A stretch of 64,000 nt of DNA from Romanomermis culicivorax (lineage: Eukaryota > Nematoda > Enoplea > Mermithida > Mermithidae). The notes beneath the pieces were generated by a model. It saw only the letters and a list, made by a program, of their open reading frames with translations. It made no database searches and was not told the origin of the DNA. The DNA lies in contig CAWUHX010000065.1 in NCBI GenBank assembly GCA_963922205.1, positions 868,001 through 932,000 on the forward strand. Reading direction: 5' to 3'. The first letter of the stretch is position 1. Each line of letters opens with the position of its first letter. Made by a program: the position numbers and the translations under genes. This document shows, in pieces, positions 16,331-63,028 of the stretch.

Positions 16331-18759
16331 CTATTTGCGGCCCAGCATATAAGTTTGATCATTGGGTATAGGGCTCATGGCGTTTTGCAAGAACGGCAAA
16401 TGCGAAGTGTCCACGCCCCAATTGCCGGTAATGACGCCCACGCCGGCGGCGTCGTAAGCCTTATTGCCCGAATATTTACCTTTGGCGACGTCGATGTTTT
16501 GATTGCTGCTGCCTGAATAGTACGGGGCACTGTTCTGATTGGTGATGGTCGGATCGCCGGCGGCTTGTTGCGCGGCGAACGGGTTGAAAGGCGACGGGGT
16601 GGCAGCGGCGGATAAGACGGCGTCGTAGGCGCGCAGTTTCCCATCGCCTCCCAACCAGGTGAGCAGCAGGTTGTTGTTCAAACGGTCTCGAACATCCGGG
16701 CGCAGGGTTTCGGCCTGCAAATCGGGTGCCTGGGTGGCCGCAGCGACGGAGCGTTCGACCGTTGTCGAATTTACATTGGCCCCACTGGCGTTAACCGCAG
16801 TTTCTGCTGCCGGTGCCAGTTTGGCACTTTCGGCTCCCGATATTGATCCTTGTCGGCAGATGCCCAATTCGTAGTTAAAACGCTGACACAACGTTGCACG
16901 AACTCTGTCTTCGACTAAAGCGTTAAAAACGTTATATCCCTTTACTCCAAGTGTCCCGTTACCCCAAGAATGCTATAAATATATTTTTAAATTTCCCATT
17001 ATTCCATGTGTCACGTTACCTCAAGTGATATTCTTGGTTCTCAATTTTCATCATATCACAACGATTACCCCAAAGACAGACTAATGTAAAGGCCATGCAG
17101 AGTACCGAAAGGTACATTTCGGCGCCGCTGTTTGGACACCAGCCAGTTCGGCGCTGCGTTATTAGGGCGCTGGCGCTGGCCCTGGCGGCTGCGGTTTCGG
17201 CGCCAAAATAATTTTCTTTTCGTTTTATTTTTTCAGTTTTTTTATTTCCTTTATTTCTTATCCTTTTCTTTTTTAACTATTATTTTTCTCTTGTTTTCTG
17301 TGTCTTTGTTTTTGTTTTGGTTTATGTTCATGCTGTATTTCTTCGTATTATTTTTTCTTTGTATTTCTTTTTCTTTTGTTTTCTGTGTTTTGCTTAAGTG
17401 TTTGTCTAAGTTGTTACGTTAAAGTGTTCAAGTATCCAAGGAAAATTGTAGAAGATTCATGTTGCATTGTTGGAGTAATGGAACACCCTGTTTTGCAAAA
17501 AAATACACTTGGAGTAAAGGAATTTATAACATTACTTCGAGTAAAGGGACACTCGAGGTAACGGGACACTTGAAGTAAGGGGACACAATCGTTGAACATG
17601 AAAACTACAAGATGGTCAAAACTATATTACTAAATCAGCAGGGCTAATCACTCTTCGGGTTTGGTTCTTCAGAAAGCATAATTATCTTGATACTTCACTT
17701 CAAATCTTCATATATATTCCTACAGTATGTCATCATTCGTGACAGAATACTGCTTTTCACTCCATAAAAATTACTGTAAATCTTCTATGAATAAGAACTG
17801 AACAGATTAAACCTACAATTGTTATTTTTCGTAATGATACGAATCAGTTTTTTAAGTTTTAGAGATTTCCATAAAAGCTGCAAAACGATGCGAACTTTGT
17901 TTCAAATTTGATAAAATCAGTAAATAATATTAGAAGTTTTCTCTTAACTCTTTTAAAGCGATAAATCAATTGACTTTATACCATGAATCTGTCAAAAAAA
18001 TGTCCACGAGAAAGCAAAAAAATCGTGGGAATAGTTCATGCCTATATCTACAGTACATCTTGGACTCGAATCATTCACAGTGAACCACTAATTTTTGATT
18101 TTTTTCATTTAATTTTAGAAATTGCATTAGAAGTATTTGGCAATTAGAATGTAAACCTACTATGAAAGTACTTTGCAACGCCATTAAAAACTATTTGGGC
18201 GACGCCTTGAATGTCTGTTTTCTGTCCATAACTGGTAATCTTATGGTAAGCACTTTCAAAATTTCTGTTTTTATTACCTCACTTTGAAGCATAAATCAAG
18301 TTTTCACAGATATTTCGTATCAGCGTTTTTCCTCTTCCCCCAGATTCTACTGCTGATTTTTCTGAAATAATTACAAAAAATCAATGCATAAAAACCCACA
18401 GAACAGAGTGGTGTTAAAAGCTGTACCAAAAAATCTATGATCTTTGAGCATGCATAAAAATTCTGAAAGCCAAGAATGTCATATTGTAACATCAGGAATT
18501 CAATTCTTTTCATATAAAGTCTTTTGCTGTATGCATTATCTATTCACAAGTCCTACCGTTTGTGTAATGAATGAATATGGAGTTGAACAATGCCGCCTTT
18601 TAGGACCATGTTCTAAGCGTTCAGTGAAAGTGGCTATTCAACGCAATTTCGATGCTAAAGCTCAAATTCCAAGTCTTAGAATGTCATTTACTTACCAAAG
18701 GATTCGACGCTGTTGAGTAATAAATTTATAATCACCGAAATACAGATCAAAAGTTGCAT
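16331..18759 (-). CDS. Secreted modular protein, cluster gene 1 (modules A and D)
   Basis: Two exons: 18759-18696 and 16914-16331, 215 aa. Exon 1 is a signal peptide (MQLLICISVIINLLLNSVES) ending in phase 1 at a consensus GTAAGT donor. Exon 2 follows TTTTTAACGCTTTAG and completes a Val codon. Just after the signal peptide comes a C-x9-C motif (LCQRFNYELGIC, Cys31 and Cys41), matching the C-x8-C of the sibling genes. Then come an Ala/Thr/Asn-rich linker and a divergent module D (AAGVGVITGNWGVDTSHLPF). The end, LGRK, is a Gly-basic tail. The function is unknown and I do not recognise the family. The two exons and phase match the other nine members, which is the strongest support. The 1.8-kb intron contains no mapped repeat. 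Confidence 0.85.
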
Positions 18760-18904
18760 AATTTATTGACAACGCATAGGTTCACAAATCGCCGTTGTTG
18801 AAACTGTTGCCGTTTGAAGTTCATATCAACGAAGCAACACTGATTATTAATGTTTCACTTGATTGAACGTTGAAAAAAACCTGATCCGGTTTTTTTGAGT
18901 GTGA

Positions 18905-21500: not shown

Positions 21501-23271
21501 TCAAGACGGTTTTGGCAGCCCTAAGCCTGGCCACGCTGGCGCCACATTTGATTGAGCTGCTTGCTGCACGGGAGCTGCAACCGCGGGTGGCGGATTGTTG
21601 CTGAGGCCGGGTGGCGGCTCAAGTACGGATGGTCCCGGTTGCAACGGCGGCGCCGCGGGGTTCACTTGAGCCTTGGGAATGCTGATCAGTGGATTAAACG
21701 GTCCACCGAAGTTTGGGTTGATCGGGGCGGCGGCCGACTGCTGTCGCGCAACTAGCATGCATAATTTGTAGTAGAACTTGCAAAAGTAGAGGTAATCGTC
21801 GCGGATGGCCTTGCCCGTATTGCATTGCGTCTGCCATTGGCGCTGGTATTTAGCGCAATATTGGTCCGAGCCGGCTGGCAAGGCTGGCGGAGCAGTCGCC
21901 CGTGGTGGGAACTCGCGTCCGGCGCAGAATTGTTTGTACTGCATACAAGACTTGTGTGTTTGGGCGTTCTCCGTACCGTCGCAGAACGTTTCGTACGACG
22001 ATTTGTAAGCCAAACAGATCTCGGCGATTTCGGGCGACATCATGGGTTTTTTGACCACAACGCCGGACTGCGCGCCGCCGAGGCATACTCGTTCGTACTT
22101 TGAACATAGATCGTCGAGCCGCGTATCGCTCCGCCGCATGTCGACCGACTTGCAATTCGATGTGTCGTAATCGTTTTTGTATTGCGAACAAAACGCGTCG
22201 ACGTCGTTCAGACCGCTGACTAAGTCTTTGCCGCCGTTGGATGACGCGGGCTGGACTACTGGATTCACAATTGGAACCGGTGCTGGAGCGATGGGTGGCT
22301 GAGGAGCTAATTTAGTGGTGGCCGCACTACTAGTGCATAAGATGTTGTTAGGAAAGCGTGAACATAGATCGACCAAGGCAGGTACTGGAAAAGATGTTAT
22401 CGACTCTGAGTTTAGAATAAAAAACGAAATCGTAAATGGCATTTTTGGATAGCCCAACTCACGTGTTTTGTAGCAGAACACCCCGCCCCCTTGAAGATTA
22501 TTATTTGGGTGGAGTCAATCGCTCACACTGCATGAGGTCAAACACTTTTGATGCGAAGACCAAACCACCCTGAACCCCCTCCGCCCATGTATGGTTCTAA
22601 TGTAATTAGTTACTCCCATTCACTCTCAACAACAAAACTAATAACAGACATCATGCACGGGGGTGTTCGGTAGTATTGACCTCTAACAGTTCTTGATTGA
22701 CCCTCGGCAGACTCTTGCTGACCCAGAGCAGATTTGACCCCCATAATCGAGAAGATCATGAAGGAAAATGAGCAAAAGAGAATAAATAGTCGTTTCAAGA
22801 ATGAGAATGATGCTGTAGTTTAACGATTTCTCTAAACTAAGCGTACTTGATTCCGAAGAAGTCTGATTAAATCAAATAAAAAAATCAAATAAAATGATCA
22901 AATTAAGGCGTTAGAAATGGTGAGACGAAGCAAGTAGTTTCCAATATTTGCCTATATAGATTGAAAAAATATGTAACTTAGATGTTAGAAGACCATTTTT
23001 TCGTTATCAAGAAAGAGGGAATAAATTTCTACCCCACCCCTGCCTAGCTGATGGGTTCCTACGGTGTCAACTACTATTTTTCAGGGTTTCTTTTTTCATT
23101 CAACACAAACAACATCTAATACTGCAGATTATGAAAATTTTGTCATTATCAATCAAATTCGACGCAGTAATTTCACATACTTGATTTAGTAGTTTCTAGA
23201 AAATACTTACCCGATCGGTCACTGTTACACGGTGCCAAAATATGAATTAAGAATAGAGTAATGAAAAACAT
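21501..23271 (-). CDS. Secreted cysteine-rich protein, cluster gene 2 (three four-Cys units)
   Basis: Two exons: 23271-23211 and 22384-21501, 314 aa. Exon 1 (MFFITLFLIHILAPCNSDRS) is a signal peptide ending in phase 1 at GTAAGT; exon 2 follows TTTTCCAG and completes Val21. Module A is LCSRFPNNILC (C-x8-C). Then come a Pro/Ala-rich linker and three four-Cys units, each a long pair (FCSQYKNDYDTSNC; ICLAYKSSYETFC; YCAKYQRQWQTQC) plus a short C-x6-C pair (LCSKYERVC; SCMQYKQFC; FCKFYYKLC). The C-terminal ~80 residues are Pro-rich without module C or D. The cysteines are evenly paired, as expected for an extracellular disulfide-rich protein. The role is unknown. The ATG sits just after TTTTGAAG, a weak possible trans-splice site. 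The intron contains a family Q repeat. Confidence 0.88.
22610..23060 (+). repeat. Dispersed repeat family Q, copy 1 (intronic)
   Basis: Shares GAGCAGATTTGACCCCC, AAGGAAAATGAGCAA, AATGATGCTGTAGTTTAACG and GATGTTAGAAGACC with copies at 26190-26540 and 47160-47470. It lies in the intron of cluster gene 2. Confidence 0.6.
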
Positions 23272-26189: not shown

Positions 26190-26540
26190 TGGGGGGTTGG
26201 GGGCTTTTGATCCTCAGCTGACTTTGATTGGCTCCCAGCAGATTCTTGCTGACTCCCAGCAGATTTGACTTCCCCAGCAATTATTGTGAAGATGGCGAAG
26301 GAAAATGAGCAAGAGAGAAGAAAAAGTCGTCATAAAAGTGGGGATAATGCTGTAGTTTAACAATTTTTCTAAACAGATCATACTTGATTCCAAAAAAGTA
26401 ACATTGCAGTCTAAGAAAATAATTTTACATATCTGACTAATATAAGTTGTAGAATATGCTGCTTGGATGTTAGAATACCTTTCTTTTCGTTATCAAGAAT
26501 GAAAAAAATTTGTATTCCACCCCCTGTCCTGGCTGACCCC
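26190..26540 (+). repeat. Dispersed repeat family Q, copy 2
   Basis: Matches the copies at 22610 and 47160 through AGCAGATTTGACTTCCCC, GAAGGAAAATGAGCAAGAGA, ATGCTGTAGTTTAAC and GATGTTAGAATACC. Confidence 0.6.
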
Positions 26541-31400: not shown

Positions 31401-33891
31401 TTGACACTTATCCAGATTTTCAAACGTACGTACTTTGAGTATCAAAATTTGGCTCAATAAACTCATCCGAGGTTCTTCAGTTATAAATTCCAAATATCTA
31501 CATGTTATAGAGCATTCGATAGACGATAGGCATGCGAGTAATAGTACACCAATGTTTTGCCCATAAGCCACACTTACACTGAAAGTTGCATAAATTTATT
31601 TTTGGTAAGTTCGTCTATCCGATATCAGCAACGGGGAATGGCTTAGACATGCTAGATAAATAATCGTCTAAATTACAATAATGTTCATAAACAAAAACGT
31701 TTAATGAAGTTTAATGAAGCTCAGATGAAAAATGGTGAGATATCAGATTTTTTTCCTTTGAAAAACTATTTTTATGTCATCAGCAAGATTCGTCGAATTT
31801 GATTTCTCTCTTTTCCATATCTGTTGTAGTTTCTGGGATCAGGTAAATAAACTTTCGATTGTTTAGCACATTTGTGCAAATTTCATTTTTTTAAAAAGCC
31901 TGTGGGCAATAATGATCAGTGTAGCATTACTCATGTTGCTCCGGAGCTATCGAATACACTATAAACTCACATGTTAGAAGATCTGTCAATTTATTTGACT
32001 CTAAGACTTGCGACTACTGTGTAAATTCTTTTTCTATTCACATAATCAAGGATAATGATTTTCAGTTGGTCAAAAAATGTTCGCCGACTTCTTGAAAGGC
32101 GAATTCAGCGACGAGAACATCTTATTCTGGATGGCCTGCGAAGAACTCAAAAAAGAACGTAATCGCGAAAAAATCGAAGAAAAAGCTAGAATCATCTACG
32201 AAGATTTCGTATCGATACTATCGCCTAAAGAAGTAACGATGCTAATTTCACTTGGATTCATTTTGAAACAGAAAAAACCATGAGACCCTAAGAGTTTGCA
32301 GATTTAAAAACCGGCAGTGCACGTGAGCGTATTTTTTTTATAAGTAAGTCGATGACTAATCTTTACAGTAAATTTGCGAAAAGAAGAATTTTCTTCCAAT
32401 GCTTCTAAATTGTAAAACTGGATTGCCAATACCATTTCATGGTTTCAATATATTCTGCTTGACCGTATGTCAAGTAGGATTAAGAATTTTTAGCAAACTC
32501 GACTAACTTTTAACAATTTTTCCAATGAAAACCCTCACTGTAATAGCACCATGGAAACTGTATTAACACCACCATGCGTTTCAATCGCAGAAAAGTAGAG
32601 TACAATTGATAGATATGTAAATCAAATTTTCGTAAGACCCGATGATTTATTGCCTTAGTTCATGCTCAGTTTTCATTTATCATTCGCTGACATGGCAGTG
32701 ATGCTGACTGTTTTCTGCATTTACCTTACGAGAGAACGCTTCCGAGTGTACATTATTGCACATGTTCTAGTAGTGCGCTGGATAGCCCATAACATTTTAG
32801 ATATTGGTGCAGTAACTTTTTTTCGTTGACCTATTTTACACCGGAATTTGTGTAAAAGTGTAAAAGGAAAGAAACTTCATTAATACTTGATTTACGCAAC
32901 AATAAAATATATGAATGTGTAAGCAACCACATTTTATAAATTGATCAAGTATCAAAAAAGTACCTCATGTGATGAAAGAGTGATTTTACAGTGCTAAGGA
33001 GTTATTGACTTTTAAAATTCACATTCAAAGTTCAAACTTTCAAATTCAGAATTGCATATTGCATAAACTATTTGATTTAGATGATAAGTCATATGAGCAT
33101 TATTGTTGTTTTTGAGATGATCTATCGAATGCATTTGAATCGAATCGCACAGAATGTATCGGTTGTTGAGATTGTGTATAAGGCAACTTTCTATTGTTTT
33201 ACGCATTTATGCAAATTTCGGTGTAAAGAAGATCGATGGAGAAAGCGGTTGTGTAACATTGCTATTTATATAGTTATTGACTATCGAACGGACGATAGAA
33301 TATTCAATTCCAAAATATACACTTGCAAAATGAAAACGGTCCCTCATTAGTTTAATCCGAAAACACATAACAATATAACTAATAAGACCTATTTGAAAAA
33401 TCATTTTCTCCACAGTTCACTATTTTTGTAAATAACTTATAGAAAATAGAATGGTTCAAAATTCATGTGTCCTCATGAAGTATGGTGAGATCCTTGGTGT
33501 CATAAAGGACAAGCAATATTTAATTTTTTGATATCTATCGACATGTATTGAACCGAAATAATTTTTCAATACATTATTCTATTCTAAAAGACTCGTTTAG
33601 TCTTTTTAAACTATCTTTTCGATCTATAAGCTCCTAAATGGGACTACAGTAAGCTCAAGGAATAGGTTAGTTACAGTAATCGAATTGGTGTTACATTTAT
33701 TTCAGGTGAGTCTAGATTCGAGGGTACGCGAAATTGTCAACAACAAAATGGTGCACCCGGACGCCCATACATTCGACGAAGCTCAAGAACAAATATTTCA
33801 ACTTATGCAACGAGATTCGTTCCCCCGCTTCATTTCATCGCAGATATATAAAGATTTACTGGCGTCACATCTCCGATGCGAAGAACTGTGA
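28424..33891 (+). CDS. Small RGS-domain protein (RGS17/19/20-like)
   Basis: Four exons: 28424-28509, 28576-28637, 32066-32232 and 33706-33891, 166 aa. RGS proteins speed GTP hydrolysis by G-alpha subunits and so shorten G-protein signals at the membrane. Residues 1-29 start MSFGCCSF, a Cys pair that could be palmitoylated. The RGS box runs from about residue 38 (WGTSFERLM) through FSDENILFWMACEEL, IYEDFVSILSPKEVSLDSR and FDEAQEQIFQLMQRDSFPRF to near the C-terminus. Splice sites GTAAGA/GTATAG, GTAAGA/TTTTCAG and GTAACG/TTTCAG keep the frame. Size and the SPKEVSLDSRVRE segment fit the RZ group (vertebrate RGS17/19/20, nematode small RGS). Oddity: at the position of the Asn that touches G-alpha (N128 in RGS4) this protein has Lys (NNKM). 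Introns 2 and 3 hold MITEs and foldback elements. An AATAAA lies near 33985. Confidence 0.93.
28991..29239 (-). mobile_element. MITE family M1 in RGS intron 2
   Basis: 249 bp, same orientation as the 11810 copy: starts TATACTCTGTTTTGTGTAAA, contains GACACAAATCAGTACTGTCG, ends AAAAACAGACTATA. Confidence 0.85.
30835..31035 (+). mobile_element. MITE family M1, degraded copy
   Basis: Left end TATAGTCTATTTTTCTATAA followed by AAGTAAGGTACTATTTCCAC and ATTTTCATGATTTTCTG. The right end is not recognisable. Confidence 0.5.
31180..31370 (+). mobile_element. MITE family M1, very diverged relic
   Basis: Only GGAAAGCAAGTACTATTAAA, a following GGAATTTTCTGATGAAC and a late AACAGACTTTATA recall the family. 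Confidence 0.35.
31500..31985. mobile_element. Foldback family W, copy 2
   Basis: The left arm has ATTCGATAGACGATAGGCAT and GCGAGTAATAGTACACCAA. The right arm (about 31890-31975) is inverted: GTGTAGCATTACTCATG and AGCTATCGAATACACTATA. The interior shares TTAGACATGC and ACAATAATGTTCAT with the copy at 53715. Confidence 0.6.
32715..33310. mobile_element. Foldback family W, copy 3
   Basis: Internal landmarks ATCAAAAAAGTACCTCATG and GATGATCTATCGAATGCAT match copy 1 (26790). The arms (near 32745-32820 and 33240-33305) are more diverged. It lies in RGS intron 3. Confidence 0.45.
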
Positions 33892-37700: not shown

Positions 37701-38291
37701 GAATGCGTCGTTTGGACAGTATTCCGAGCAGCGATTCCAATTTCTAGCCGTCAAGTAAGATCTACATTCCATTTATTCCGAAATGACACATATACGAATA
37801 AAAAGTAAGTAGGTTCATCGCAAAAAAATTATTAAGCTTATTACTGTAGTCAATTAGGAAAATTCTGTCGTTTACGAGCGGCGAACTAATGAATATTTTT
37901 CAATAACCTGGTCATATGGTCAAAATTTCTCGAGTTGGTACATCTTAACCTGACGCGCAATCCTATCCAAATGATAAGTGGAAGAGCATTAAATATGTCG
38001 TTTCTATGATATCCCGTTGTCACGAAGAAATTCAGCATTTTCGATTGCTTTTCACCCTGAAAATTTCGTGGCATTTTTTAGCGATCCTTATCGTGAAATT
38101 TTTCTAGAAACTAATCAATGATCCTTATATACATTTTTTAGCTCGACGCATTTCGATCTTTGTACACCGTCGCTATAGAAAACGCCGAAACCACATCCGA
38201 GTGCCGCATGCTAGAAAACGTGCGGCCAGTGCAGGCGCTCAACGGGCGAATAGTGCGATCGTCGTTCAAAGCAGGTGGCGTTGCGCAATAA
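34762..38291 (+). CDS. Alpha-carbonic anhydrase with a novel N-terminus
   Basis: Eight exons: 34762-34777, 34846-35040, 36428-36622, 36679-36797, 36853-36945, 37149-37266, 37648-37754, 38142-38291; 330 aa. The enzyme interconverts CO2 and bicarbonate. Catalytic parts are intact: the zinc ligands His152 and His154 (QIHCHWG) and His177 (ELHYVHWN), the proton shuttle His123 (NTGHSW), Glu164 (GSEH) and Thr258 (SLTTPP). Other family signatures are [22 protein letters not shown] and RPVQALNGR. No signal peptide or membrane anchor is seen, so it is probably cytosolic. The first 70 residues (exons 1-2), predicted helical and Gln/Lys-rich, do not resemble the usual HWGY...W start of the family. Exon 2 reads on into a stop at 35061-35063 followed by AATAAA (about 35067), so a short product is possible. 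Introns carry a MITE fragment and a family P repeat. Confidence 0.94.
35396..35500 (-). mobile_element. MITE family M1, fragment in carbonic anhydrase intron 2
   Basis: Partial match: AAATGCTTTTAAATTGAAAA, then AATTTAGTACTGTCG and ACTGTAGAATTTTTTC, without the outer ends. Confidence 0.4.
37826..37960 (+). repeat. Dispersed repeat family P in carbonic anhydrase intron 7
   Basis: AAGCTTATTACTGTAGTCAA, ACGAGCGGCG and CAATAACCTGGTCATATGGT match the copy at 15990. Confidence 0.55.
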
Positions 38292-41985: not shown

Positions 41986-42118
41986 CTCTACATCAAACTT
42001 TCTAAATGACAAAACTACCATGTCATACCGGATACTTTACTAAAAATAAACTTCGAAATATACAGAACAATACAGGTGCGTTTATAAGTAAGTAAGAAAA
42101 GTTCATCGATCCTGTATA

Positions 42119-46069: not shown

Positions 46070-47650
46070 CTATCTGTTGGGCGCACGTAAAAAATTAAAA
46101 GGACTCGATTCTAAACCGGCGTTCGGTTCTAGGCCCATTTTCCGATTCAAATCGGCCAGCATGGGCAAATTTCCGAAACTGACACCACTGGCGTGCGAAA
46201 AATTCAAGCCGGCTGCGTTAAATTTTTCGCCAGTGGAGAAGCTCCTCGTCGGCGACAAGTGCAAGCCCCGTTCGTAGTTGAAAAATGGGAAGCCGAAACT
46301 GGTGCCCAAGTTTAAGCCGTCGTCGCCCAACGTTTTCACCGGGTCAGGCAAGTTGTATTCGACATTTTGAGGAAAAGCGGTCGTCGGTCGGGGCGTCGTG
46401 GCCGAAGATGGCGGGACTGCTGCCGCGTCGGGTGCCACTTCTTCTTTCTTGGGTGGTGGTGTCGTTATGCCCAAAAACGGCAAGTTAATGTGCGTATTTT
46501 GCGGCACCAATTGGGAGGCGTTAACCAAAGACGTGTTGACTTCTATGGGAGTTAAGACCGGTTCCGGCGTTGGAGGTGCCGTGACCACCACCCGATGTTC
46601 AACGCGGCAGGCGGTTTCGTAACCGTCGCAGAAGATGGTCACGAAAGTTGGCAATGGAACACTGACCAAGCACATGTCTTTATAGTCGAGTATATGCTTC
46701 TCACAATATGCGTGATTGGATTGGGCGACTGCAGGTTGCGCATCCTTCTGGATTGCACTTTCTTCTTCACTGCATCGGGATTTTGCTATAAAAAGGAAAT
46801 TGGCAAAACACTATAGACAGACTCTCAAGGACATATGCTAATCCAAGGAAAAGTATCTGAGTACACCTATTATTTACTGACAGTTCATGAGACAGATGAG
46901 CTATGCTTTTGAAATTTGTAGTAGTGGTACACAGAGACTGTTCAGCACACTCTGCCACCACTACAACCACGAAGTCTTCAGTCAGCTGCTTCAAGACACG
47001 CCAGTCGAGTATTCTAGCAAATTTTTAGTTCCAAATGATAAGCGATATAGCAGAAGACCGTAAATAGATAAAACAGTGCTTGCTTCCCATGCTAAGATTT
47101 ACAAGTTGTTAAGAAAACCAGCCTGTGAGAAAAAGTTTACTTATTCAAACAACATCTATAGAAGCATGCACGAGGGGGCTTTGAAGGGTATTGACCCCAG
47201 CAGATTTTGATTGACCATCAGCACATTCGCCCCCCTCAGCAATGAACGATGAAGAAAAATGGGCAAGAGAGAAGAGAAAGTTGTCATAAGAATGAAAATG
47301 ATACTGTATTTTAACGATTTTTCTAAACAAACCATATTTGATTCCAAACAAGTAACATCAAAACTTTGAAAAGTGCTGACCAAGCAAATAGTTTCACATA
47401 TCTGACAAATATAGGCTAAATAATAAGCTGCTCAGATGTTAGAAGAATGTTTTTTCATTATCTCCATCCCTCTAATGAGCATAAAGTATGGCTAGGTTTC
47501 ATGACAAAAAATTATTCTGCGCAACTGCAAGGTTCAGAAGAATTTTCAAAACTTTGCAAATTTGGCAAGTATACCTGGTGCGCAATCCAGGCTAGACAAC
47601 TGCGTTAACAGTAATATAAAAAATACAAACAAAATAGGAAATAACGACAT
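46070..47650 (-). CDS. Secreted modular protein, cluster gene 5 (four-Cys unit plus divergent modules C and D)
   Basis: Two exons: 47650-47575 and 46785-46070, 263 aa. Exon 1 is a signal peptide (ILFVFFILLLTQLSSLDCA) ending in phase 1 at GTATAC. Exon 2 follows CCTTTTTATAG. One four-Cys unit is present: YCEKHILDYKDMC with FCDGYETAC, after an earlier lone Cys (SRCSEEE). A Pro/Thr-rich linker leads to a divergent module C (GLNLGTSFGFPFF...PTRSFSTGEK) and module D (FNAAGLNFSHASGVSFGNLP...LNRKMGLEPNAGL). Here C and D sit in one exon, whereas in the plus-strand genes an intron separates them. It is the first gene of the apparent minus-strand set 5-4-3 and diverges from gene 6 across 750 bp. The intron contains a family Q repeat. 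Function unknown. Confidence 0.86.
47160..47470 (+). repeat. Dispersed repeat family Q, copy 3 (intronic)
   Basis: AGCAGATTTTGATTGACC, GGGCAAGAGAGAAGAGAAAG, TAACGATTTTTCTAAACAAA and CAGATGTTAGAAGAATG match the other two copies. It lies in the intron of cluster gene 5. Confidence 0.6.
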
Positions 47651-48400: not shown

Positions 48401-50961
48401 ATGGCTTTAGTAAATATTAGTGCTTTGATCATTTGGTTTCTCATAGACACGATCGACTTGGGTCGTTGTGCTCCTATGATTCCTGGAATTTTCAACTCAT
48501 TAAGTCCGGGCTTCGGTCCAGCGGCTAGTACTGATACACTGCAAAGTACAGGTGAGAAAATATGGCCACTGAATGGTTGTAGGCTTTTTAAACACCGCTA
48601 ACAAACAGTCTCACTATGCGGATAAGAAAATATTCGAGAAAATAATAAGAATATAAAATATGAGAAACAAACAAAATATAGAAAATATTCGAGTCTGTTA
48701 AATGCTTCCAAAAGTACTTGCATTTCACGTCTATTATTTTGGGTCACATCACAATAGGCAAGGCGAAATAAGAGCGAAGTAGAATCTGAGTAGGAATGAA
48801 AGCAGGACCAAACTTTGAGTATCTGCTGCACTTCTGCTCCTGTATGGATTTTTTTCACTTTTTGTTATATGTCACAACAATGTGAGACAGGATCAATTTT
48901 CGGATAGGTTTTTTGGTATCATAGAAGCTGGAGCCAGTACGTTCGGAGGATCAAAAATGGAGTGAAATTTCAGAAATTTACATCAAAATTTTACATCTGA
49001 TCGGGCAGAACTAGATTTGGAGCAAAAAAAGGCAAATGTACGCGGCATGTGAATCTTACACAATTTTTGTCGCAGTTTGGCCGACACATTATTTTGTGGT
49101 CGACCGTTTCTGGACACTGTTTCACCAATGAACAACCCGCGAAAACACGTGCAGAACTGCAATCACGAAAAATTTACCAATTTTACTTCAATTTTACATA
49201 GGATCACTCGCTGCACACTTGCTCCATATGAAGATAGAGTAAGGTTCGTCGCTCTAAGAAATAAATTTCGACGACATTTTTGCCGTCTCGCTCCGATAAT
49301 GCTCTGAACTTACTTTCTTCCCCTTCTGTGGTACCAAAAAGCTTAGGTCGCACTCATTTTGCTTTAGATTTTCAGTTACTCCAGCATTTCTCCAAAACTG
49401 CTCATATTTATTGGGACCTTTTGTAGTAGTTCACCACCACTATTTTTTTCATATTTTTTTCATTTTTTTAGTTTTTCGGCGATTTTTTTTGTCATCAGGT
49501 AGGTTGCGAACCTGCAACCTTTTGATTCAAAAACTCCAGTGCGTTACCACTGAGCCAAACACTCACTTAAAAATTAACCTTTTAATTCCCATTTATTATT
49601 TTCATTATTTCAAACAACTTTGCATTATGGACACGGCCAAAAAGCTGCAATATTATTCAATAAAGCCTAAGCCTAAGCCTAAGCCTAAGCCTAAGGCTAA
49701 GCCTAAGCCTAAGCCTAAGGCTAAGCCTAAGGCTAAGCCTAAGCCTAAGCCTAAGCCTAAGCCTAAGCCTAAGCCAAAAAAAATAGTGGTGGTGAACTAC
49801 TACAAAAGGTCCATTTATTGTTTGCACACTTAAACATTTGGACCAGAAGAATTTCACCGAAAAACAGATTCTATATAAGTGAACAAATAGAAAACATGGA
49901 TTTATATAGACGTACTTACAGCGTGTTTTTTTCCGAAATTCTTCTAAATAAGAAAAGTGGCCGGCAAGTACTATTCTATATTCTTACGATTTTCTGCCTT
50001 GAGAATATGTCGTGTGGGACTGAAATTTATGAATATATGTAGTCAACTAACCTTGAACAATTTTCTTGAGGAGAAATTTTACATCTAAAAGCTTGTAATA
50101 AACAGTTTTGACGGTAGTCTTGATTTTTGTCATTTCTTAAATTTGGAGGCATTTTATGAAAAATGGTTTTGATAAGTATCTCAAAGGCATTTTTAAAATC
50201 TGGATAAATTTATCCATCTTGTGAACTTTGGCTTTTGTCCAAATTACAGTAAGGAACTTTTTCAACTTTTTTCCATCTAAAAATGGGCATTAAATTATAT
50301 AGGTAATCAACAGCAGAGGCCGTTTACAAACCCCAATATACCACCCGCGCTTCAGACTGCTTACCCACTGGCCGGCATCGGCGGCAGCGATCCGTACAAT
50401 CTGCCGCGTTTTGGGGGCCCCATTCAGGGCGGTCTGGGTCTGGGTAAACAGCTCCAGTTACCATTTTTCGATTGGTCGAAAGGGACTAACGTGGTGCCGA
50501 CGCAAGGATTCGAATCAGGAAATGGTAACTATTGAATATGAGACAGAAATCATTGCTACAGTAAGCCAGAAAGATATCGCAATCGTTATTTTCATCGATT
50601 TGATCTTGCATTCAAAAGATTGATATGTAAATGATATTGCATTACATTCAATTGATCACAGAATATTGAAAAATGTGTGCTGCTGGCTTAAAATTTGAAG
50701 ACTAGAAAAAGTTTTTAAACTCATTGAAAAGGCAATGTTGATAAATCTTATATGAGCTGTAAAACTAAGCACTTTTGAGCCCATTTCCTTGTTTTTTGTG
50801 GATTGCAACATTAGGCTAGTATTTTCTTCTTAGGTTTCAACGTTGCCGGCTTAGGCATCCAATCAACCAGAGGAGTCAATTGGTCGGGACTTCCTTTCCT
50901 AAGTGGCTTGAATAGAGCAATGGGTCTGCCATCGAACGCTGTTCAAGGATCGAATGGTTAA
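48401..50961 (+). CDS. Secreted Gly-rich protein, cluster gene 6 (modules C and D)
   Basis: Three exons: 48401-48551, 50303-50524 and 50834-50961, 166 aa. Exon 1 encodes a signal peptide (ISALIIWFLIDTIDLGRCA) plus about 25 residues; all junctions are phase 1. Exon 2 is module C: LAGIGGSDPYN, FGGPIQGGLGLGKQLQLPFF, GTNVVPTQGF. Exon 3 is module D: FNVAGLGIQSTRGVNWSGLP, LNRAMGLPSNAVQ. There is no cysteine module, and the end (GSNG) lacks the basic tail of its siblings. The 1.75-kb first intron contains a probable nested gene, a hAT-like MITE with telomeric repeats and an M1 MITE. Function unknown. Confidence 0.87.
48844..49307 (+). CDS. Probable small secreted Cys-containing protein nested in cluster gene 6
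   Basis: Two exons: 48844-48881 and 49076-49307, 89 aa. Exon 1 is a short hydrophobic leader (MDFFHFLLYVTT) ending in phase 2 at GTGAGA. Exon 2 follows ACAATTTTTGTCGCAG, a strong acceptor, and completes an Ile codon. The mature part has cysteines in the contexts LFCGRP, QNCNHE, TRCTLA and HFCRLA, plus a basic C-terminal half. The phase-2 junction and Cys spacing differ from the surrounding family, so this is not an exon of gene 6 (whose first exon ends in phase 1). It lies in the same orientation inside gene 6 intron 1. I do not recognise it. Confidence 0.5.
49496..49565 (-). other. tRNA-like sequence inside the MITE
   Basis: On the minus strand an A-box-like TGGCTCAGTGG and a B-box-like GGTTCGCAACC are spaced as in a tRNA. 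The acceptor stem does not pair and the anticodon arm folds poorly, so it is not a working tRNA gene. It may be a tRNA-derived fragment that still contains RNA polymerase III promoter boxes. Confidence 0.45.
49665..49775 (-). repeat. Interstitial telomeric array (TTAGGC)n
   Basis: About 18 uninterrupted GCCTAA units (TTAGGC on the minus strand) with three GGCTAA variants. The array lies wholly inside the hAT-like MITE at 49414-49812. Confidence 0.95.
49925..50170 (+). mobile_element. MITE family M1, degraded copy in cluster gene 6 intron 1
   Basis: GCAAGTACTATTCTATATTC, TTACGATTTTCTGCC, TTGACGGTAGTCTTGATTTT and GGAGGCATTTTATGAAAAA follow the family order, with both ends eroded. Confidence 0.6.
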
Positions 50962-51615
50962 AATTGTTTGCCCGTTATTCGCATGTACATCTTGTAATTT
51001 ATTTTTCCTGTTGATCTTTGTTAAAATCATCGAAAGAAATCAGTGATTGAAGTGATCAATGGAGTGATTCAAACTGCATTGTTTAATAATTCGTACCAGT
51101 GGCATCTGATATTCCTCAGCTATTTTTTGAAGGGTTCGTGTAAAATTTGCTCTTGATATTCTGTTGGTTTAATTTACTTGTTTCATTTTATATTTTCTAG
51201 TATAATCTTTGTTGATTCTCACTCATAATATTTCCGAGAGATAAGCCTTGCAGTACAAAACTTGTTCACACTGCAAAATTACACAGGTTCATTTCGCAAA
51301 TCGTCCAAACAATAGTTAAAGATTTCTATCCGCTTAAAGCACACTAGTTGCGTTGAATGTTATTCACATTTCTAGATCTAAATAAATGTATTAAAAAAGG
51401 CTATCAAAATTAGTTTGAAATGTCAGTAACGTGATAGGAAATTTTCATCTTCTTATACTAAAAAATTGTTTTCTCCAAATCCAAGGACATTTCCGCAAAA
51501 ATGGTGGCTAATAAACAAGACTTATGGATTTAACACGTAAAACTGTGTCTCGTCCTTGATATCACGAGCACTATAAATATTTTTTTTAAAAACGCTCTCA
51601 TTTTCCCCCGGAAAA
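50962..51615. other. Intergenic region between cluster genes 6 and 7
   Basis: 654 bp without exons. An AATAAA lies at 51381. The distal part is the probable promoter of gene 7. Confidence 0.4.
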
Positions 51616-52852
51616 ATGAACTACCAATATCTTATCGTATTAATTTTATTTTCTGTATACGAATGCAGTAGTCAAGGTAAATTCAACAAAAAGCGCACAA
51701 AATCTTTTTACTGCTAAATACAAAATTTAGACTTAACCTCATTATTGACCAATAGCAGTCCGTTTTCCGGCCTGGGCGGCGTTAATTCTTCGTCGTTGCC
51801 CGTTTTCGGCGGTAGCGTGCCCGGAGGCTTGGGATTAGGCTCCAGTTTGAGCGTGCCTTTTTTTTCGTCCAGCAAAGGTACAAACATCGTTCCGACGGAA
51901 GGATTTGCGACTGGCAAATGTATGTGACATTTTTACGTTGAACTAATCACTTGTTGCCTGATTTTCAAAAATTTGCCGAAAAATAGCTTATGTTCATAAA
52001 TAATGTATTACTCAAAACCGATGTTTAAGTTTACTGTTTTCAATATGGAAATTACTAGAGATTTCGCGAGTTTACAGACAAATGGAAAAGTACACTATGG
52101 TTTTTTAAATTGACTTGCAAATCTTTGGGCTAGATTTTCAGGTACTGCATTTTCTAGACCTATAATTCACGGACGTAAAACTTTATTATGACTAGTTTAT
52201 GTTGCATTGTTTACTGATTTTCGAACATTTATCGAAAAAAGCTCAGGTTCAAAAACATGTATCAACTTGGAGATCAAAAGCATTCTGTATTCAATACTAT
52301 ATTTTGATGCATCAGAGTTTACAGATTGATGGAATAAGTTTGAATCGAATCTCAGGTTTCTAGTCTCTGAACACAACTGATTTCAATTTGACTTTGAATT
52401 TCAGGATGCTAATGTTCGAATTTGAAATTCTACTGACGGGAATTACAAAAATTGTTGAATCAATATACTCTATTTTTAGTCTTTACAACCTACGACTTTC
52501 ATCCGGACGATAATTTTAGAATTTCAAAGAGTGCTAGAAAATTAGTTTTGTTGTTGATAAAAAAACTCCTTTCAAATATTTCAGGTCTTAGTCAGATGCA
52601 CAATGAATAAAAAAGCTTAACACATAACATAATTTTCACAGCATCCTAACTATTTATATTTTCTTTTTTTAAACTAATTCAGCCTTTAACGTCGCCGGCA
52701 TCGGGATAACGTCGTCCAAAGGAGCCACTTGGGGCATGTTGCCCTTGGTCAGTAACCTCAATCAGGCTTTGGGCTTGACGCCTAACGCAATTTTCGGCGG
52801 CCGGAGAAAACGACGACATTTGGAAGATTTTTTGAAACTTTCGCAAATATGA
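51616..52852 (+). CDS. Secreted Gly-rich protein, cluster gene 7 (minimal form, modules C and D)
   Basis: Three exons: 51616-51676, 51731-51919 and 52683-52852, 139 aa, all junctions phase 1. This is the smallest member: signal peptide (MNYQYLIVLILFSVYECSSQ), module C (GLGGVNSSSLPVFGG, GGLGLGSSLSVPF, GTNIVPTEGF) and module D (FNVAGIGITSSKGATWGMLP, SNLNQALGLTPNAIF). It ends GGRRKRRHLEDFLKL..., that is, a Gly followed by a five-residue basic run where a furin-like or prohormone convertase could cut. AATAAA at 52871-52876, 19 bp past the stop. Gene 8 starts 256 bp downstream. Function unknown. Confidence 0.9.
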
Positions 52853-53108: not shown

Positions 53109-56100
53109 ATGACCCAGTTATATACTATTTTGATAGCTGTTCTTGTAAATGATATGATTCACTTCTCGATTCAAGGTAAGTTTGATTAATCTAAAAATGA
53201 CCTACCTAAAAGTGAAGCTCAGAGTGTTCAAAAAATGACCGTCTAAAAGTTTGAAGTACTCTAGCTAGAGTGTTAAAACTCTGTTCAACCTATTTTTCCG
53301 AAAAAATTATCATGTAAATAAAAAACAACCTTTTTATATCGACTTGTTTTTTTCGAGTTGAGTGTAGTTTGACAAACAAATTGAGGAAAAAAGTTTTCGG
53401 CGACGATGCAGGTTCATTGTCTGCTCGCTGATTTCTATGGATTATTTTGCTTTCTGAGGCTCAATCAAAAATAAATAAGTGTATCAACTTAAAATTTGAT
53501 TTCTAAATCTATAATACACAATGAGCTGTGTTCATTCATAGTAAACCCCTACTATATCAATTTCTACCCCAAAAATTAGTGTTCCGTTATTCCTATGTCA
53601 ACATACTATGGAATGCTTCATCGATATAACGCCCGAGCTGACTTAAACGCTGGACTTCTGATTTCTGAAGAGGGAAGTTCATCGGATGTAAATTACAAAA
53701 AGTCACGTGTTCTTGTGGATTCGGTAGCTTACAGGCATGCGAGTAATCTTACACTAACATTTTTTCCCAAAGGCCATATTTAGAGTAAATTTCTATGAAT
53801 GTGGTATAAACTGGTATATTTGCCAATACGCGATCTCAGCAGCCGGAAAAAATAAACAATAAATAAAAGAAAATAGAATATGCTCAGACATGCACTAGAC
53901 AGATAATTAAACACTACAATAATGTCCATTTGAAAAAGCATTTATCTTTAATACGCTATGAAATACACAGAATCCTCTGGACAACAGCTCTCAGGTCGAT
54001 AATAGTACGATATCAGATTGCCTTTCTGTCAGAAACATTTCTGAATCCAGCGGTCATTAATTTTCCAATTTTCCATTTATGATATAGTTCCTGTGAGGTA
54101 CAGGTAAACTTTCGATAGTCTATCATGTCTATGCGCATTGTTGCCCATGGGCAAAAATAGCGAGTGTAACAATACTCAGGTAGCTGTCGATTAATATAAC
54201 ACGTATGATTGCAGAATGAGGATATTCTCTCGTGAGCGGCAACAGTCAATTTTGATAACATTGTGTCTCACGAGAGTTTCATTCGGATTGGGCCGGTTAC
54301 GTCAACATTAGTTCAGTAATTTTATATTTTTTGCTTTAACAAATACTAGAAAAAAGCTGTTTTTTTATTATTACACTTCCAGAAATACCATTTTATTTCG
54401 CAAATTTATCTTTTCATAATATTAAAAAAATTTCCGCGAGATAATGTAAATTAAATTCTATTGAAGGGTTTACTTTGACATCTACTGAATCTTACAGTAG
54501 GGACGACTGAGCCAATAAGCAACTGAACTTTTCGTCAATGCACGAAATTTTTCGCATCTGATATTATTGTAATTTTGCTTGAATTACCCTGATTCCATCA
54601 AGGTAGCGCCTTTAGGCGGATCGTTTTTCTCGGCCACTGATTTGAAACCACGGCTTTTACGGCCAAACATGCAAAAATTACACATTCGTTTCAAAAGTTT
54701 TTTAGACGCGCTTGTCGACAAAATTTGCAGCCGCTTTCCGTCTCAAAGCATATGTCAAAGCAGCTCGTCTCCCTCGTCAGTCGGAAACACCGCCACTCCA
54801 CCTCCTCCGCCGCCTCCCACCAGTCAATCGACCGCAGCTCCGGCGACGCCGCCCCCTCCTGCACCACCCGCGAGCAATCAAACGGCTCCGGTCAACTCTT
54901 CCTCCAATTTTCCGCCCAATCAAGCAAATTTTTGCACCCAAAATAACGACTACTTTGTGGGATATTGTTCGCCTAAGAGCGGAAAATATCAAGTGGAACA
55001 GGCTGTCTATAATTTCTGTTACGATTATTCAAAGAGGTGTAATAGACCTTTGCCTTTTGGATTGACGCCTGTTCAGCCAGGATCTACTCAGACAAGTATG
55101 CATTGATGGAAAGAAAAGAAAAGAAAAGAAAAGAAAAGAAAAGAAAAGAAAAGAAAAGAAAAGAAAAGAAAAGAAAAGAAAAGAAAAGAAAAGAAAAGAA
55201 AAGAAAAGAAAAGAAAAGAAAAGAAAAGAAAAGAAAAGAAAAGAAAAGAAAAGAAAAGAAAAGAAAAGAAAAGAAAAGAAAAGAAAAGAAAAGAAAAGAA
55301 AAGAAAAGAAAAGAAAAGAAAAGAAAAGAAAAGAAAAGAAAAGAAAAGAAAAGAAAAGAAAAGAAAAGAAAAGAAAAGAAAAGAAAAGAAAAGAAAAGAA
55401 AAGAAAAGAAAAGAAAAGAAAAGAAAAGAAAAGAAAAGAAAAGAAAAAAAAGAAAAGAAAAGAAAAGAAAAGAAAAGAAAAGAAAAGAAAAGAAAAGAAA
55501 AGAAAAGAAAAGAAAAGAAAAGAAAAGAAAAGAAAAGAAAAGAAAAGAAAAGAAAAGAAAAGAAAAGAAAAGAAAAGAAAAGAAAAGAAAAGAAAAGAAA
55601 AGAAAAGAAAAGAAAAGAAAAGAAAAACTTAACAAATTAAACAAAAAAGCTCTTCCTTTTTCAGATACACAGCCTTTAAATCCAAATTTGCCCGCCGTTC
55701 TCCAAAGTCAATCGCCGTTGGGCGGCCTGGGAGGCGTCAATTCGGGAAATTTCGCCCAATATGGCGGCCCGGTGCAAGGCGGTCTGGGTATAGGCAAAAG
55801 TTTCCAAGTTCCTTTCGTCGGCGCCAGCTCGGGTACCAACGTCGTTCCGACCGAGGGCTTCCAATCAGGCAAAGGTGAGATTATTGCGTATGATTGAAAT
55901 TGCACGATGTCAGAAATTGGCGCAAAATTAAAAAAAACAGCGTTTACTGTAGCTCAATTTTTTTAAACTTTTTTGATGTCGAATGCTTATTTAATTTTCT
56001 AGGTTTGAACGTAGCCGGTATCGGCATTCAATCTTCGAGTGGCGTCAACTGGGGCGGCATTCCAGGCGTCAGTAATTTAAATCAAGCGTTGGGTCTGTCG

Positions 56101-56193
56101 CCTAATGCTGTGCTCGGCAATCAACAACCGTCTTCGGTGTTTAGCGGTCGTCGAAAAAGGCACACATTTTTGACTCGACTCTTCTTTAGATGA
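53109..56193 (+). CDS. Secreted modular protein, cluster gene 8 (all modules)
   Basis: Four exons: 53109-53175, 54706-55095, 55665-55874 and 56003-56193, 285 aa, all junctions phase 1. Exon 1 is a signal peptide; TTTGTCAG two bases before the ATG could be a trans-splice acceptor. Exon 2 has module A (ICSRFPSQSIC, C-x8-C), a Pro/Ser/Thr-rich linker and one four-Cys unit (FCTQNNDYFVGYC with FCYDYSKRC). Exon 3 is module C (LGGLGGVNSGNFAQYGG, GGLGIGKSFQVPF, GTNVVPTEGF). Exon 4 is module D (LNVAGIGIQSSSGVNWGGIP, SNLNQALGLSPNAVL), then FSGRRKRH. It joins the Cys-rich type (genes 1-5) to the Gly-rich type (6, 7, 9, 10). Intron 2 is almost entirely a 520-bp GAAAA repeat. AATAAA at 56375. Function unknown. 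Confidence 0.9.
53715..54200. mobile_element. Foldback family W, copy 4, in cluster gene 8 intron 1
   Basis: The left arm GGATTCGGTAGCTTACAGGC, ATGCGAGTAATCTTACACTA is paired with an inverted right arm near 54110-54190 (GCCCATGGGCAAAAATAG, GTGTAACAATACTCAGG, AGCTGTCGATTAA). The interior matches the 31500 copy. Confidence 0.6.
55105..55626 (+). repeat. Pentanucleotide microsatellite (GAAAA)n
   Basis: About 520 bp of nearly perfect GAAAA repeat with one interruption (extra A run at about 55446). It starts about ten bases after the donor of exon 2 of cluster gene 8 and ends 38 bp before the next exon. The long open frames on both strands are artefacts of the repeat. Confidence 0.97.
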
Positions 56194-58240: not shown

Positions 58241-59592
58241 ATGATTTTTTGGTACGAATATGGTATCATCTTGCATTTCCTCATGATAAGCTACAGTATC
58301 CAACAAGGTGCTTTTGAAATCCGAAGAATATTGTAGAAGAATGTTTTTGATGATTCTATATTACATTTCAGATGAATTAGGGATCCCGGATTTCGGCAGT
58401 TTAGTACAAGCAACCGGCGACACCTTCAGCATGCCCAGCAGTCTACCGCTTCCGCAAGGGACTTCGCAAGGTGAGAAAGCGGAATGAAGCATGAATGTCT
58501 TCACTCCCACAAAAACTATTGAGGTTTGATTTAGCAGAAAATTACAAGAATATGAAACAGTACTTACTTTCCGAATTAATTTGCTAGAATTATAAGAAAA
58601 ACAGACAATTTGTTTTGGCCGGCATTCATACTTATGGAGTGATACTGTAGCTTTGAAGCATCAAATGAATATTCTGAAGCCTTCACTGTAGTTTCACAAC
58701 AAAAGATGCTTTTTCTGAAGCGCATAATGTAGTTCCACAACAGCAGATGCACTTTTTGGAATGCATACTGTAATTTCACAACAGCAGGTAAAATATCTCA
58801 AGTCCATATGATAATTTCACAACTGTAGATGCACTTCCTGAAGTGCATACCATAGTTTCACAGCCGCAGATGCACATAAGCTATGACCTCCGAAAAATTT
58901 TAGGGCCCGCGTTGGCCGCCATAAACAGTCTCGGATCTCTACCAAACATACTTCTAAACGCCAGTCCATTGGCCGGCATAGGCGGTTCGACAAATCCCGC
59001 CAATTTTCCGACATTCGGCGGCAACGTACCCGGCGGATTGGGTTTCGGCAATCAACTACAAGTGCCCTTCTATTCGCAGAGCAAAGGCACCAATGTAGTG
59101 CCCACCGAAGGCTTTGCTTCTGGTCTTGGTGAGCCGACGAGTGTTTCTACAGCAATGAAAATCTGGGAGTGCAACCAAATTATAACCAGGCTTTGACCAT
59201 GCCTAACTCCATCAGATCAGAAAAATAAAACCACTCTAAATCACGTTTCTGGATAGATCTTAACGAGAAAGCTAATATCTGAAACTGTGTCAATTTGCTC
59301 CAAAACCCCTAACCCCACGTGATGAAAAAGGGTAGAATTAAGTAGCATTAAAACAACACATTCGAATACATCATTTTTGCGTCTGCAAATCTAAAAAATT
59401 TGCTTGTCATGAGCGGATAATTTTTTTTCACGCTGGACATTTTCCATTTCGCAGCAACATTCTTCAGGTATGAATATTGCCGGTTTGGGTATACATTCGT
59501 CGAAAACGGCCACCTGGGGGATGTTACCTTACCTGGGCAACTTGAACAAAGGACTCGGTTTGACGCCTAACGCCATTTATGGTGGAAAGTGA
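58241..59592 (+). CDS. Secreted Gly-rich protein, cluster gene 9 (modules C and D)
   Basis: Four exons: 58241-58307, 58372-58470, 58904-59128 and 59468-59592, 171 aa, all junctions phase 1. Exon 1 is a hydrophobic leader (MIFWYEYGIILHFLMISYSI) resembling that of gene 10; its donor GTGCTT is weak. Exon 2 (DELGIPDFGSLVQATG, LPLPQGTSQ) is a short acidic/Pro spacer shared only with gene 10. Exon 3 is module C (LAGIGGSTNPANF, GGLGFGNQLQVPF, GTNVVPTEGF). Exon 4 is module D (MNIAGLGIHSSKTATWGMLP, GNLNKGLGLTPNAIYGGK, then stop). The C-terminal GGK is a Gly-basic end. There are no cysteine pairs. Function unknown. Confidence 0.87.
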
Positions 59593-61115: not shown

Positions 61116-63028
61116 ATGAGCTACATAAATTACCATATTTTCTCAATTTGCATGCTATGCATAAGTTACAGTGTAGAAGGTGACGAGTTTTTTTATTTTA
61201 TTTTGATCATATGTTTCGATTTCATCCACCTGATCCTCGCATAAATTTCAGATGAGCTTCCAATACCCGATGCGACGAAATTATATGTAAAAACTTCGGC
61301 TCTGAATTTGCCAAGCGGCATTCCTATGCCCGAGGGATCACTAGCACAAGGGACAAGTGGAGGTTAGACGACTTATCGTATATGAACTTTTCCTTTAGCC
61401 AGTGTTTGTTTTGTTGTGAAATAATAGCTGTTATGAGGCAGGCGTTGAGAAACTCGCCTCATTAGTTACTTAGAATTACTGTAGCTGCATAGTGGCATGC
61501 CTCGAAGATTTTCACAGGTAACTGTTTAATTGTATGAAGCTGATTTGCATAAATAATTGTAAACTTGTCTTCGTAATCAAAGTCATTGGAAAATCATAAA
61601 GGAGCCAACAATCCAGAGAGCATTGTGAAAAGTACATACTAATTAGCAAGTGTCCAGTATTTTTTGGCATGCATAATATTCCAGATTCTGCGAATTTCAA
61701 TGTTTCTTGCAGATTCAACTCCGAAATTATTTTGTCATGTAATTACCTTCTGCAAGTGAATTTTCTACGTGTGGGCACTTTGAGTACTCCGATCAGGGTA
61801 ACATTATTGCGAGACCGGTGTGGTCTATCAAATACACTATAAACATTGCTTTGGGTGGAGACTACACTCAGAAAGTGTTTGACCTGACTTCAGGTGTCTA
61901 AGCCTACCTAGACACTGAGTTTCAAGGTGAAGCGGGAAGTTTATTGATTCAAACAAGATTTAAAACAATTTATTTTCATTTTTCATCGAATTAGGTAAGT
62001 AATGTTGAAATTTGTTTGAAATTTCCGATCTTCTGGTTATCTGAAACAGGTAACTGTTTTTTTATTTTTCAGAGTTGCTCAAAAAAGCTGATTTTGTTGC
62101 ACGTCTCACCCGAAAATCTAAAACTGAACAAAGTTCTACATCAAAAATCAAAATTTCAAACATTGTTCTATAGGGGATTGGTACAACGCCATGGCCAAGG
62201 TTTCCAGGTTGCCCGACGTCCTGATGAGCGACAACCCTTTCGTCGGTTTGTTTAACGGTTTCCAACCCGTCAACTATGCAAGTAGTCCCCAAAACCCCGA
62301 TTTGGGTGGACGTATCAAAGGTGGCGTGGGAGTCGGCAGTAATTTCAGAGTGCCTTTTTACGCCAAAAAAGTAGGAACGAACGTCGCCCCTACCGAAGGA
62401 TTCGTTACTGGAACACGTGAGCTGATCATGTTTTGTGTTAACTCCGGTTTATAGGACGTGATATTTGGGGGTTAGAATTCCCATAAAAGTGAGTTATCAT
62501 GGTCAGAGCATTTTTTCCGAAACAAATTCCACAAGTTGAATATCAACCGATAGGTCACATTGAGGTCTATTCAAAGACATGATTTTAAATAACGTACCTT
62601 CCTTTTTAACGGAGTTATAAGTGGTTAAAATTTGGCGTAAGTTTTATTGACCTCCACCAGATTTCATTGATGGCGATATAATCTAATTGTCCAAAGATAT
62701 TTCTTGACTTTAACTACTCCGTAAAGTGATTTTCATATAATGTTCCATCATCATTACCAGTGGCTCTGCCAGAAGCAAATTCTGAAAGGAGGAACTTTTT
62801 GAATACAGCCAGAACTAACCTCAAACCTTCGATTACCATATCCATCAATGCGCTACTTTGTTTACTTATTGACTGTACTTTTATGCAAATTATATTTCAG
62901 AGCAGAATATCGCCGGGGTACCAGTGCAAAATACGAAAGGCGCGGTATGGGGGATGCTGCCGTTGATCTCCAATGTGAACGATGCTATCGGTATGACGCC
63001 GAGTAACATCTATGGTCGAAAAAAGTGA
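61116..63028 (+). CDS. Secreted Gly-rich protein, cluster gene 10 (divergent modules C and D)
   Basis: Four exons: 61116-61179, 61252-61362, 62174-62416 and 62901-63028, 181 aa, all junctions phase 1. Exon 1 is a leader (MSYINYHIFSICMLCISYSV). Exon 2 (DELPIPDATKLYVKTSA, MPEGSLAQGTSG) matches exon 2 of gene 9. Exon 3 is a divergent module C: residues 59-82 replace the usual LAGIGG start; then come GGRIKGGVGVGSNFRVPFY and GTNVAPTEGF. Exon 4 is module D (QNIAGVPVQNTKGAVWGMLP, SNVNDAIGMTPSNIYGRKK, stop). YGRKK at the very end has the form of a Gly-dibasic amidation site. It is most similar to gene 9 and probably arose from it by tandem duplication. Function unknown. Confidence 0.87.

Follow-up and report, generated by a model that had tools for sequence, protein, structure and literature searches.

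Animal extracellular proteins that have arisen by exon shuffling possess leader and module exons with phase-1 borders, repeated cysteine modules and low-complexity linkers, and the same characteristics are found in a clustered gene family that is described here from a stretch of 64,000 nucleotides (the window, contig C65:868001-932000) of Romanomermis culicivorax. This mermithid nematode is a parasite of mosquito larvae (PMC10879605, in its available part), and phase-1 introns are known to be over-represented around the sites where signal peptides are cleaved (PMC1626468, likewise in its available part). The family differs from the known shuffled proteins in that its modules match no Pfam family above the cut-off. 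The twin-CX9C (CHCH) proteins, with two pairs of cysteines that apparently lie on two helices, resemble the four-cysteine module B of the family, but in B the second pair is C-x6-C with an aromatic residue in between, and the units are repeated in secreted proteins; with this second pair in all eight units and no CHCH match at E<=1, an assignment of B to CHCH was rejected. Glycine-rich secreted peptides and matrix proteins of nematodes are likewise Gly-rich, carry a leader peptide and occur in gene arrays, but the Gly-rich domain of this family, CD, has a fixed pattern of about 95 residues, and simple repeats are found only in one member, g12. Trichinella belongs to the same broad nematode lineage as R. 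culicivorax. Its stichosome proteins are, like those of the family, secreted nematode proteins (PMC11731790, in its available part), but no Trichinella sequence was returned by the protein searches.

The family is real, modular and larger than the ten genes that the initial annotation had proposed. These ten (g1 to g10, numbered from left to right) are genuine, but their number was too low, as the cluster holds at least eleven genes and further copies lie elsewhere in the genome. Members are now known from six places on three contigs (C65, C19 and C78), a census that is a lower bound, much of C65 lying outside the scanned stretches. In the window, the minus strand encodes g1-g5 and the plus strand g6-g10; the two blocks are arranged head to head, and the start codons of g5 and g6 are 750 bp apart. 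Most cysteine modules are found in the minus block and most CD domains in the plus block, and g8 holds A, B and CD together, as had been claimed. That g8 links the Cys-rich and the Gly-rich members is also correct, but it is not the sole link, since g1 (A and CD) and g5 (B and CD) connect them too.

Module A is a two-cysteine loop near residue 30 with the pattern [ILVF]C-x-[RY]-x5-7-C, present in six of eleven proteins (g1, g2, g3, g4, g8 and g11) and also early in the g12 exon. When residues 21-60 were shuffled, 0.02 chance matches arose per round of eleven proteins, and of the 12,153 six-frame open reading frames (ORFs) of 274 kb, six contain the tighter form [ILV]C-x-R-F-x4-7-C, five of these six being family genes. 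Module B consists of a hydrophobic residue followed by C-x2-[YFWNH]-x3-[YFW]-x2-4-C and, further on, C-x2-[YF]-x3-C. This strict pattern, which was derived from the members themselves and is hence partly circular, detects eight units in five of the ten proteins, is matched in none of 200 shuffle rounds, and occurs in 6 of 2868 six-frame ORFs, all of them exons of the same five genes; the second pair has Y or F at +3 in each of the eight units. Profiles built with one gene left out were significant for g4 (E 0.003) and not for g2 (E 2.9), g5 (E 1.5), g8 (E 1.8e3) and g3 (E 2.9e3), all four of which scored lower than the best shuffle. Because most of these profiles are not significant, the unity of B rests on the spacing of cysteines and aromatic residues, on position and on intron phase. 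With such a spacing, the cysteine and the two aromatic residues would share one face of a helix. Structure prediction, which had been proposed as a check, was carried out with AlphaFold2 and gave low mean predicted local distance difference test (pLDDT) values: the model of g2 alone has two helices over each of its three B units at a low-confidence 41.6, and that of g9 with four relatives reached 40.1, too low in both cases to serve as a basis for fold comparisons.

The domain CD is Gly-rich and spans about 95 residues, its copies in g6-g9 being 50-63% identical. A profile of g6-g10 recovers the copies of g5 (E 1.1e-16) and g1 (E 8.1e-4; E-values scaled to 2868 ORFs), which both beat the best of 1000 shuffles. 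Originally, C and D had been described as two shared modules, and shared they are, but they act as a single domain: their boundary is marked by a phase-1 intron in g6-g10, whereas no intron lies there in g1 and g5. Among the CD copies of g6-g10, codon position 3 differs most in all ten pairs, and the Nei-Gojobori method (NG86) gave nonsynonymous rates (dN) of 0.30-0.60 and synonymous rates (dS) of 1.40-4.17 in eight of the ten pairs, dS being not computable in the other two. As dN is well below dS, the array appears to be old and constrained by purifying selection, and not the product of a recent arms-race burst. Such diverged and constrained copies argue against the possibility that the proteins are host-directed secretions, which pharyngeal (stichosome-type) or other glands would release into the mosquito haemocoel for suppressing encapsulation or conditioning the host. 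This alternative is unlikely, if the most serious of those considered, and the upstream regions, in which no clear common element was found, also speak against it. The hexamer TTGTCA occurs in seven of the ten 300-bp stretches upstream of g1-g10 (1.2 expected), which by a rough uncorrected reckoning is probably not significant among 4096 hexamers, and it was rejected as a shared element.

All ten gene models were assembled by hand from the genomic sequence, and as the splice sites were hand-chosen, the comparison with deposited proteins matters. The models contain no internal stops, all 19 introns have GT-AG borders and phase 1, and both introns of g11 are in phase 1 as well. Judged by eye, one exon on C19 (L034) has a phase-2 end, and therefore phase 1 may not hold throughout the wider family. 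Deposited R. culicivorax proteins agree exactly with 8 of the 19 junctions, and with a ninth (junction 2 of g8) except for one differing residue. The other ten junctions have no match in these proteins; in three of them (junction 1 of g5, g7 and g8), the deposited protein starts the downstream exon at the identical point. No junction of g2, g3, g4 and g10 has outside support, but g2-g4 were never queries against that protein database, and the lack of a returned counterpart for g10, a row of the profile query, carries little weight because the same search missed the existing A0A915JSM3. One could suspect that ORFs without biological unity have been mis-assembled, in line with the ten unsupported junctions and with the B units of g2, g3, g5 and g8 that fail when left out of their profile, but this is highly improbable given that the deposited models agree for g1, g9 and most of g5-g8, and both the third-position excess in the CD codons and the constant second cysteine pair of B speak against it.

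A signal peptide had been claimed for all ten proteins, and by hydropathy the N-terminus is indeed hydrophobic in all of them (10-residue hydropathy 1.4-3.7, lowest in g4). A simple (-3,-1) cleavage site is present in eight, not in g4 and g8, and beyond residue 30 the 18-residue hydropathy peaks at 0.5-1.6, which means that no strongly hydrophobic segment follows. The family proteins are probably secreted, as far as their sequences tell. Four of them end in G[KR]+, namely g1 (GRK), g4 (GR), g9 (GGK) and g10 (GRKK), and in g7 (GGRRKRR) and g8 (SGRRKR) a G[KR]3+ motif within 14 residues of the end is followed by a short tail, whereas g2, g3, g5 and g6 have no Gly-basic C-terminal signal. The two patterns are found in 9 and 16 of 746 six-frame ORFs, figures to be read with the reservation that the pattern was picked after viewing the sequences and that the counts are not independent in related members. 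Gly-basic ends fit proteolytic trimming that is followed by amidation. In this family, the basic and Gly-basic ends suggest trimming, and perhaps amidation, in the secretory pathway. With six of ten proteins ending in this way, the C-termini would be in line with host-directed secretion. They would also suit Gly-rich, possibly amidated defence or antimicrobial proteins from body wall or gut, for which the Gly-rich CD and the basic sites with their tails in g7 and g8 could be adduced, but this is improbable for proteins that are large and modular and have no Pfam family above the cut-off.

The initial annotation recognized no named domain, and this was borne out by Pfam-A, in which neither the ten proteins nor seven further ORFs from C19, C78 and g12 passed a gathering cut-off. 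A match of g5 to Calcitonin/CGRP/IAPP (PF00214) was rejected, as its 17.4 bits (E 0.0064) remain below the cut-off of 22.3 and it covers residues 4-43, which are largely leader. Sequence matches in the PDB were taken as chance, the best being E 0.81 for g2, E 1.9 for a C19 ORF, and E 0.011 for the CD profile, which matched an aldolase but without any one stretch that passed by itself; ARAGORN and Rfam (gathering scores) gave no matches. When 5.8 billion proteins were searched, five proteins were returned in all, every one from R. culicivorax and from this cluster. The sensitivity of these searches was limited: one (8000 candidates scored) returned two of the five proteins, another only one, three others being beyond its length range, and a third four, missing A0A915JSM3. 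Since each search missed known members, distant relatives in other nematodes may have been missed too, and the claim of lineage specificity, which agrees with the return of R. culicivorax proteins only, has to be qualified accordingly. With the same reservation, the return from a single parasitic species of secreted, Cys-rich proteins encoded in an array would be expected of host-directed secretions. Lineage-specific, secreted, low-complexity arrays are also often found among reproductive proteins, and the family could represent seminal fluid or eggshell-associated secretions, but the probability of this is small. Among the matches listed, no description of the family was found in titles and abstract openings, nor is it mentioned in the available passages of PMC3890508, PMC10879605, PMC10989877, PMC11731790 and PMC5035087.

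When the genome was searched with g7 at E<=1e-3, 12 of the 13 matches fell within the window, and the remaining one, about 480 kb from the cluster, lies at C65:387012-387230 (E 2.6e-5). In this member, g12, module A reads LCERFPDAPMC and is combined with a linker, with a CD that the g6-g10 profile recovers at E 4.5e-13 among 1374 ORFs, and with GIPGMGGG repeats, and the end is GLGR; for its first exon, one weak candidate start in the scanned stretch was not accepted. The eleventh gene of the cluster, g11 (C65:931944-935168, minus strand), is an A and B gene of three exons with a hydrophobic leader that lies past the right edge; its 3' end at 63944-64000, where the last exon ends, is inside the window, and the remainder corresponds to 64001-67168 in the window frame. 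No further B or CD member was found at E<0.1 in 274 kb (C65:362001-422000 and 808001-1022000, window included). The search with g2 gave six matches, i.e. g2 itself, C19:1816541 (E 9e-4), C19:1604257 (E 1.3e-3), C78:842482 (E 0.033), C19:1383222 (E 0.22) and g5 (E 3.4). Three of the four new loci have an A motif upstream of their B units (ICNRFPNMQLC at C19:1.82M, ICDRYPGFSALC at C19:1.38M and LCKRFPKLDFC on C78), and none was seen in the short locus C19:1.60M. A B profile made from window genes only matches two exons of the C19 and C78 loci (E 5e-5 and 1.2e-4) and misses the diverged B-like units at C19:1.38M and 1.60M, where only a looser cysteine pattern is found; a refined profile included the new units, and its matches to them hold by construction. 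A third match of the window profile is at L034:676-774 on the minus strand (E 0.0016); the B-type ORF there is encoded by the other strand. B-type ORFs on C19 (L037:3105-3485 and L032:1444-1707) end in a conserved FPNIDG..G.V...WGVGGIP that resembles module D, and comparison of the whole ORFs with g1 was not significant (E 0.4-0.9).

The best explanation, still a tentative one, is that the family represents exon-shuffled extracellular matrix or surface proteins. The assignment to a matrix is made because of the composition and because g12 joins A and CD to (GIPGMGGG)n repeats of a structural-protein type; the Gly/Pro-rich composition and the repeats thus look structural, which does not favour host-directed secretion. 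It is preferred over the latter also because of the shared modules, the phase-1 borders, the lack of a Pfam domain, the linkers and the evolutionary constraint. The proteins are probably non-enzymatic and multi-modular, and would have been made by exon shuffling and tandem duplication. After the hydrophobic leader and its phase-1 intron come varying combinations of A, B, linkers and CD. A and B would be disulphide-bonded, B possibly as a two-helix hairpin, the Pro/Ala/Gln-rich linkers would be disordered spacers, CD may pack or self-associate, and the proteins may be laid down together as a matrix or surface coat of the cuticle, the eggshell or the parasitic juvenile. There is good support for the modular unity and for the hydrophobic leader; the disulphide pairs, the amidation, the assembly and the tissue are inferred. 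Several points weigh against a matrix or surface role. The Pfam search of the ten proteins revealed no matrix domain, be it collagen, chitin-binding or another, and homology thus lends such a role no backing; no literature was found on Romanomermis together with a surface coat, the Gly-basic C-termini would be equally expected of secreted peptides or gland products, and the low pLDDT of both models may reflect only a lack of relatives. In a wider and rather doubtful version, the family would be a mermithid construction kit, in which the two-Cys loop, the repeatable four-Cys hairpin and the new Gly-rich domain were recombined via phase-1 introns into surface or matrix proteins with trimmed and amidated C-termini, old in the lineage, not shared with other nematodes and a candidate builder of the interface with the haemocoel; it is kept at this low level because protein searches that missed known members weaken the argument of absence elsewhere. 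Mermithids are used in the biocontrol of mosquitoes, and among the matches listed no molecular account was found of their exposed life in insect blood. The family adds undescribed extracellular modules, and being compact, secreted and with clean gene models, it provides named targets for localization, knock-down and proteomics. Soaking in dsRNA is reported to have been used for knock-down in R. wuchangensis (PMC5035087), and extraction of RNA from adults is reported in PMC10879605.

With respect to the individual genes, g1 (16331-18759, minus strand as all genes up to g5) has the exons 18696-18759, encoding the hydrophobic leader, and 16331-16914, with A at 16856-16891 and a diverged CD at 16334-16507, and its product is identical to the deposited A0A915JS28 (215/215 residues). 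The exons of g2 (21501-23271) are 23211-23271 and 21501-22384, with A at 22335-22367, B units at 22083-22193, 21924-22019 and 21759-21860 and a Pro/Ala-rich tail. For g3 (40492-41985; exons 41916-41985, 41287-41862 and 40492-40745), which has an A-like loop at 41813-41845 and B units at 41444-41578 and 40648-40737, the left end had to be corrected: nine of the ten left ends given earlier agree, but g3 stops in frame at 40492 and not at 40268, where an ORF lies in a different frame that is not used in the model. The gene g4 (42119-43272; exons 43200-43272 and 42119-42807) encodes the weakest leader of the ten, an A-like loop (42761-42793) and one B unit (42554-42655). Between the stop of g4 and the start of g3, two genes that share a strand, lie only 133 bp (41986-42118), a distance resembling that in nematode operons, and an acceptor-like TTTGTCATTTAG is found immediately upstream of the g3 start. 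In g5 (46070-47650; exons 47575-47650 and 46070-46785), B lies at 46607-46708 and the unsplit CD at 46118-46330; exon 2 matches A0A915JS33, whose first exon differs.

On the plus strand, g6 (48401-50961; exons 48401-48551, 50303-50524 and 50834-50961) has CD at 50365-50949, including the intron, and residues 1-165 are identical to A0A915JSL4. This deposited protein runs g6 into g7, joining exons 2 and 3 of g7 to it and omitting the g6 stop and the leader exon of g7; the fusion (48401-52852) is likely an annotation error, and one deposited model of the R. culicivorax genome is thereby shown to combine two family genes. In g7 (51616-52852; exons 51616-51676, 51731-51919 and 52683-52852), CD lies at 51760-52798. 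The exons of g8 (53109-56193) are 53109-53175, 54706-55095, 55665-55874 and 56003-56193, with A at 54723-54755, B at 54930-55040 and CD at 55715-56118; A0A915JSM3 agrees from exon 2 on with the exception of the one residue, but begins differently, and like A0A915JS33 it does not contain the modelled leader exon as a whole. The product of g9 (58241-59592; exons 58241-58307, 58372-58470, 58904-59128 and 59468-59592; CD 58966-59583) differs from A0A915JS77 at 1 of 171 residues. Finally, g10 (61116-63028; exons 61116-61179, 61252-61362, 62174-62416 and 62901-63028; CD 62305-63016) is 41% identical to g9 over residues 11-180.

Between g2 and g3, exons of a gene for a eukaryotic-type carbonic anhydrase (three of four tested ORFs) and of an RGS-domain gene lie on the plus strand (36376-37805 and 33610-33888). 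The window also contains several repeats. The usual telomere unit of nematodes, TTAGGC, forms arrays of 18.8 copies at 49663-49775 in intron 1 of g6 and of 5.3 copies at 4402-4434 near the left end. In intron 2 of g8, (AAAGA)n extends over 55110-55626 with 103.6 copies and 99% matches, starting 15 bp past exon 2, and a 97-bp tandem repeat of 8.5 copies is found at 8150-8970. One dispersed repeat occurs at 22693-22862, 26224-26399 and 47190-47353, two of its copies being located in the first introns of g2 and g5, and a second repeat family of about 250 bp has copies near 11808, 12384, 28990, 40829, 45099 and 49924.

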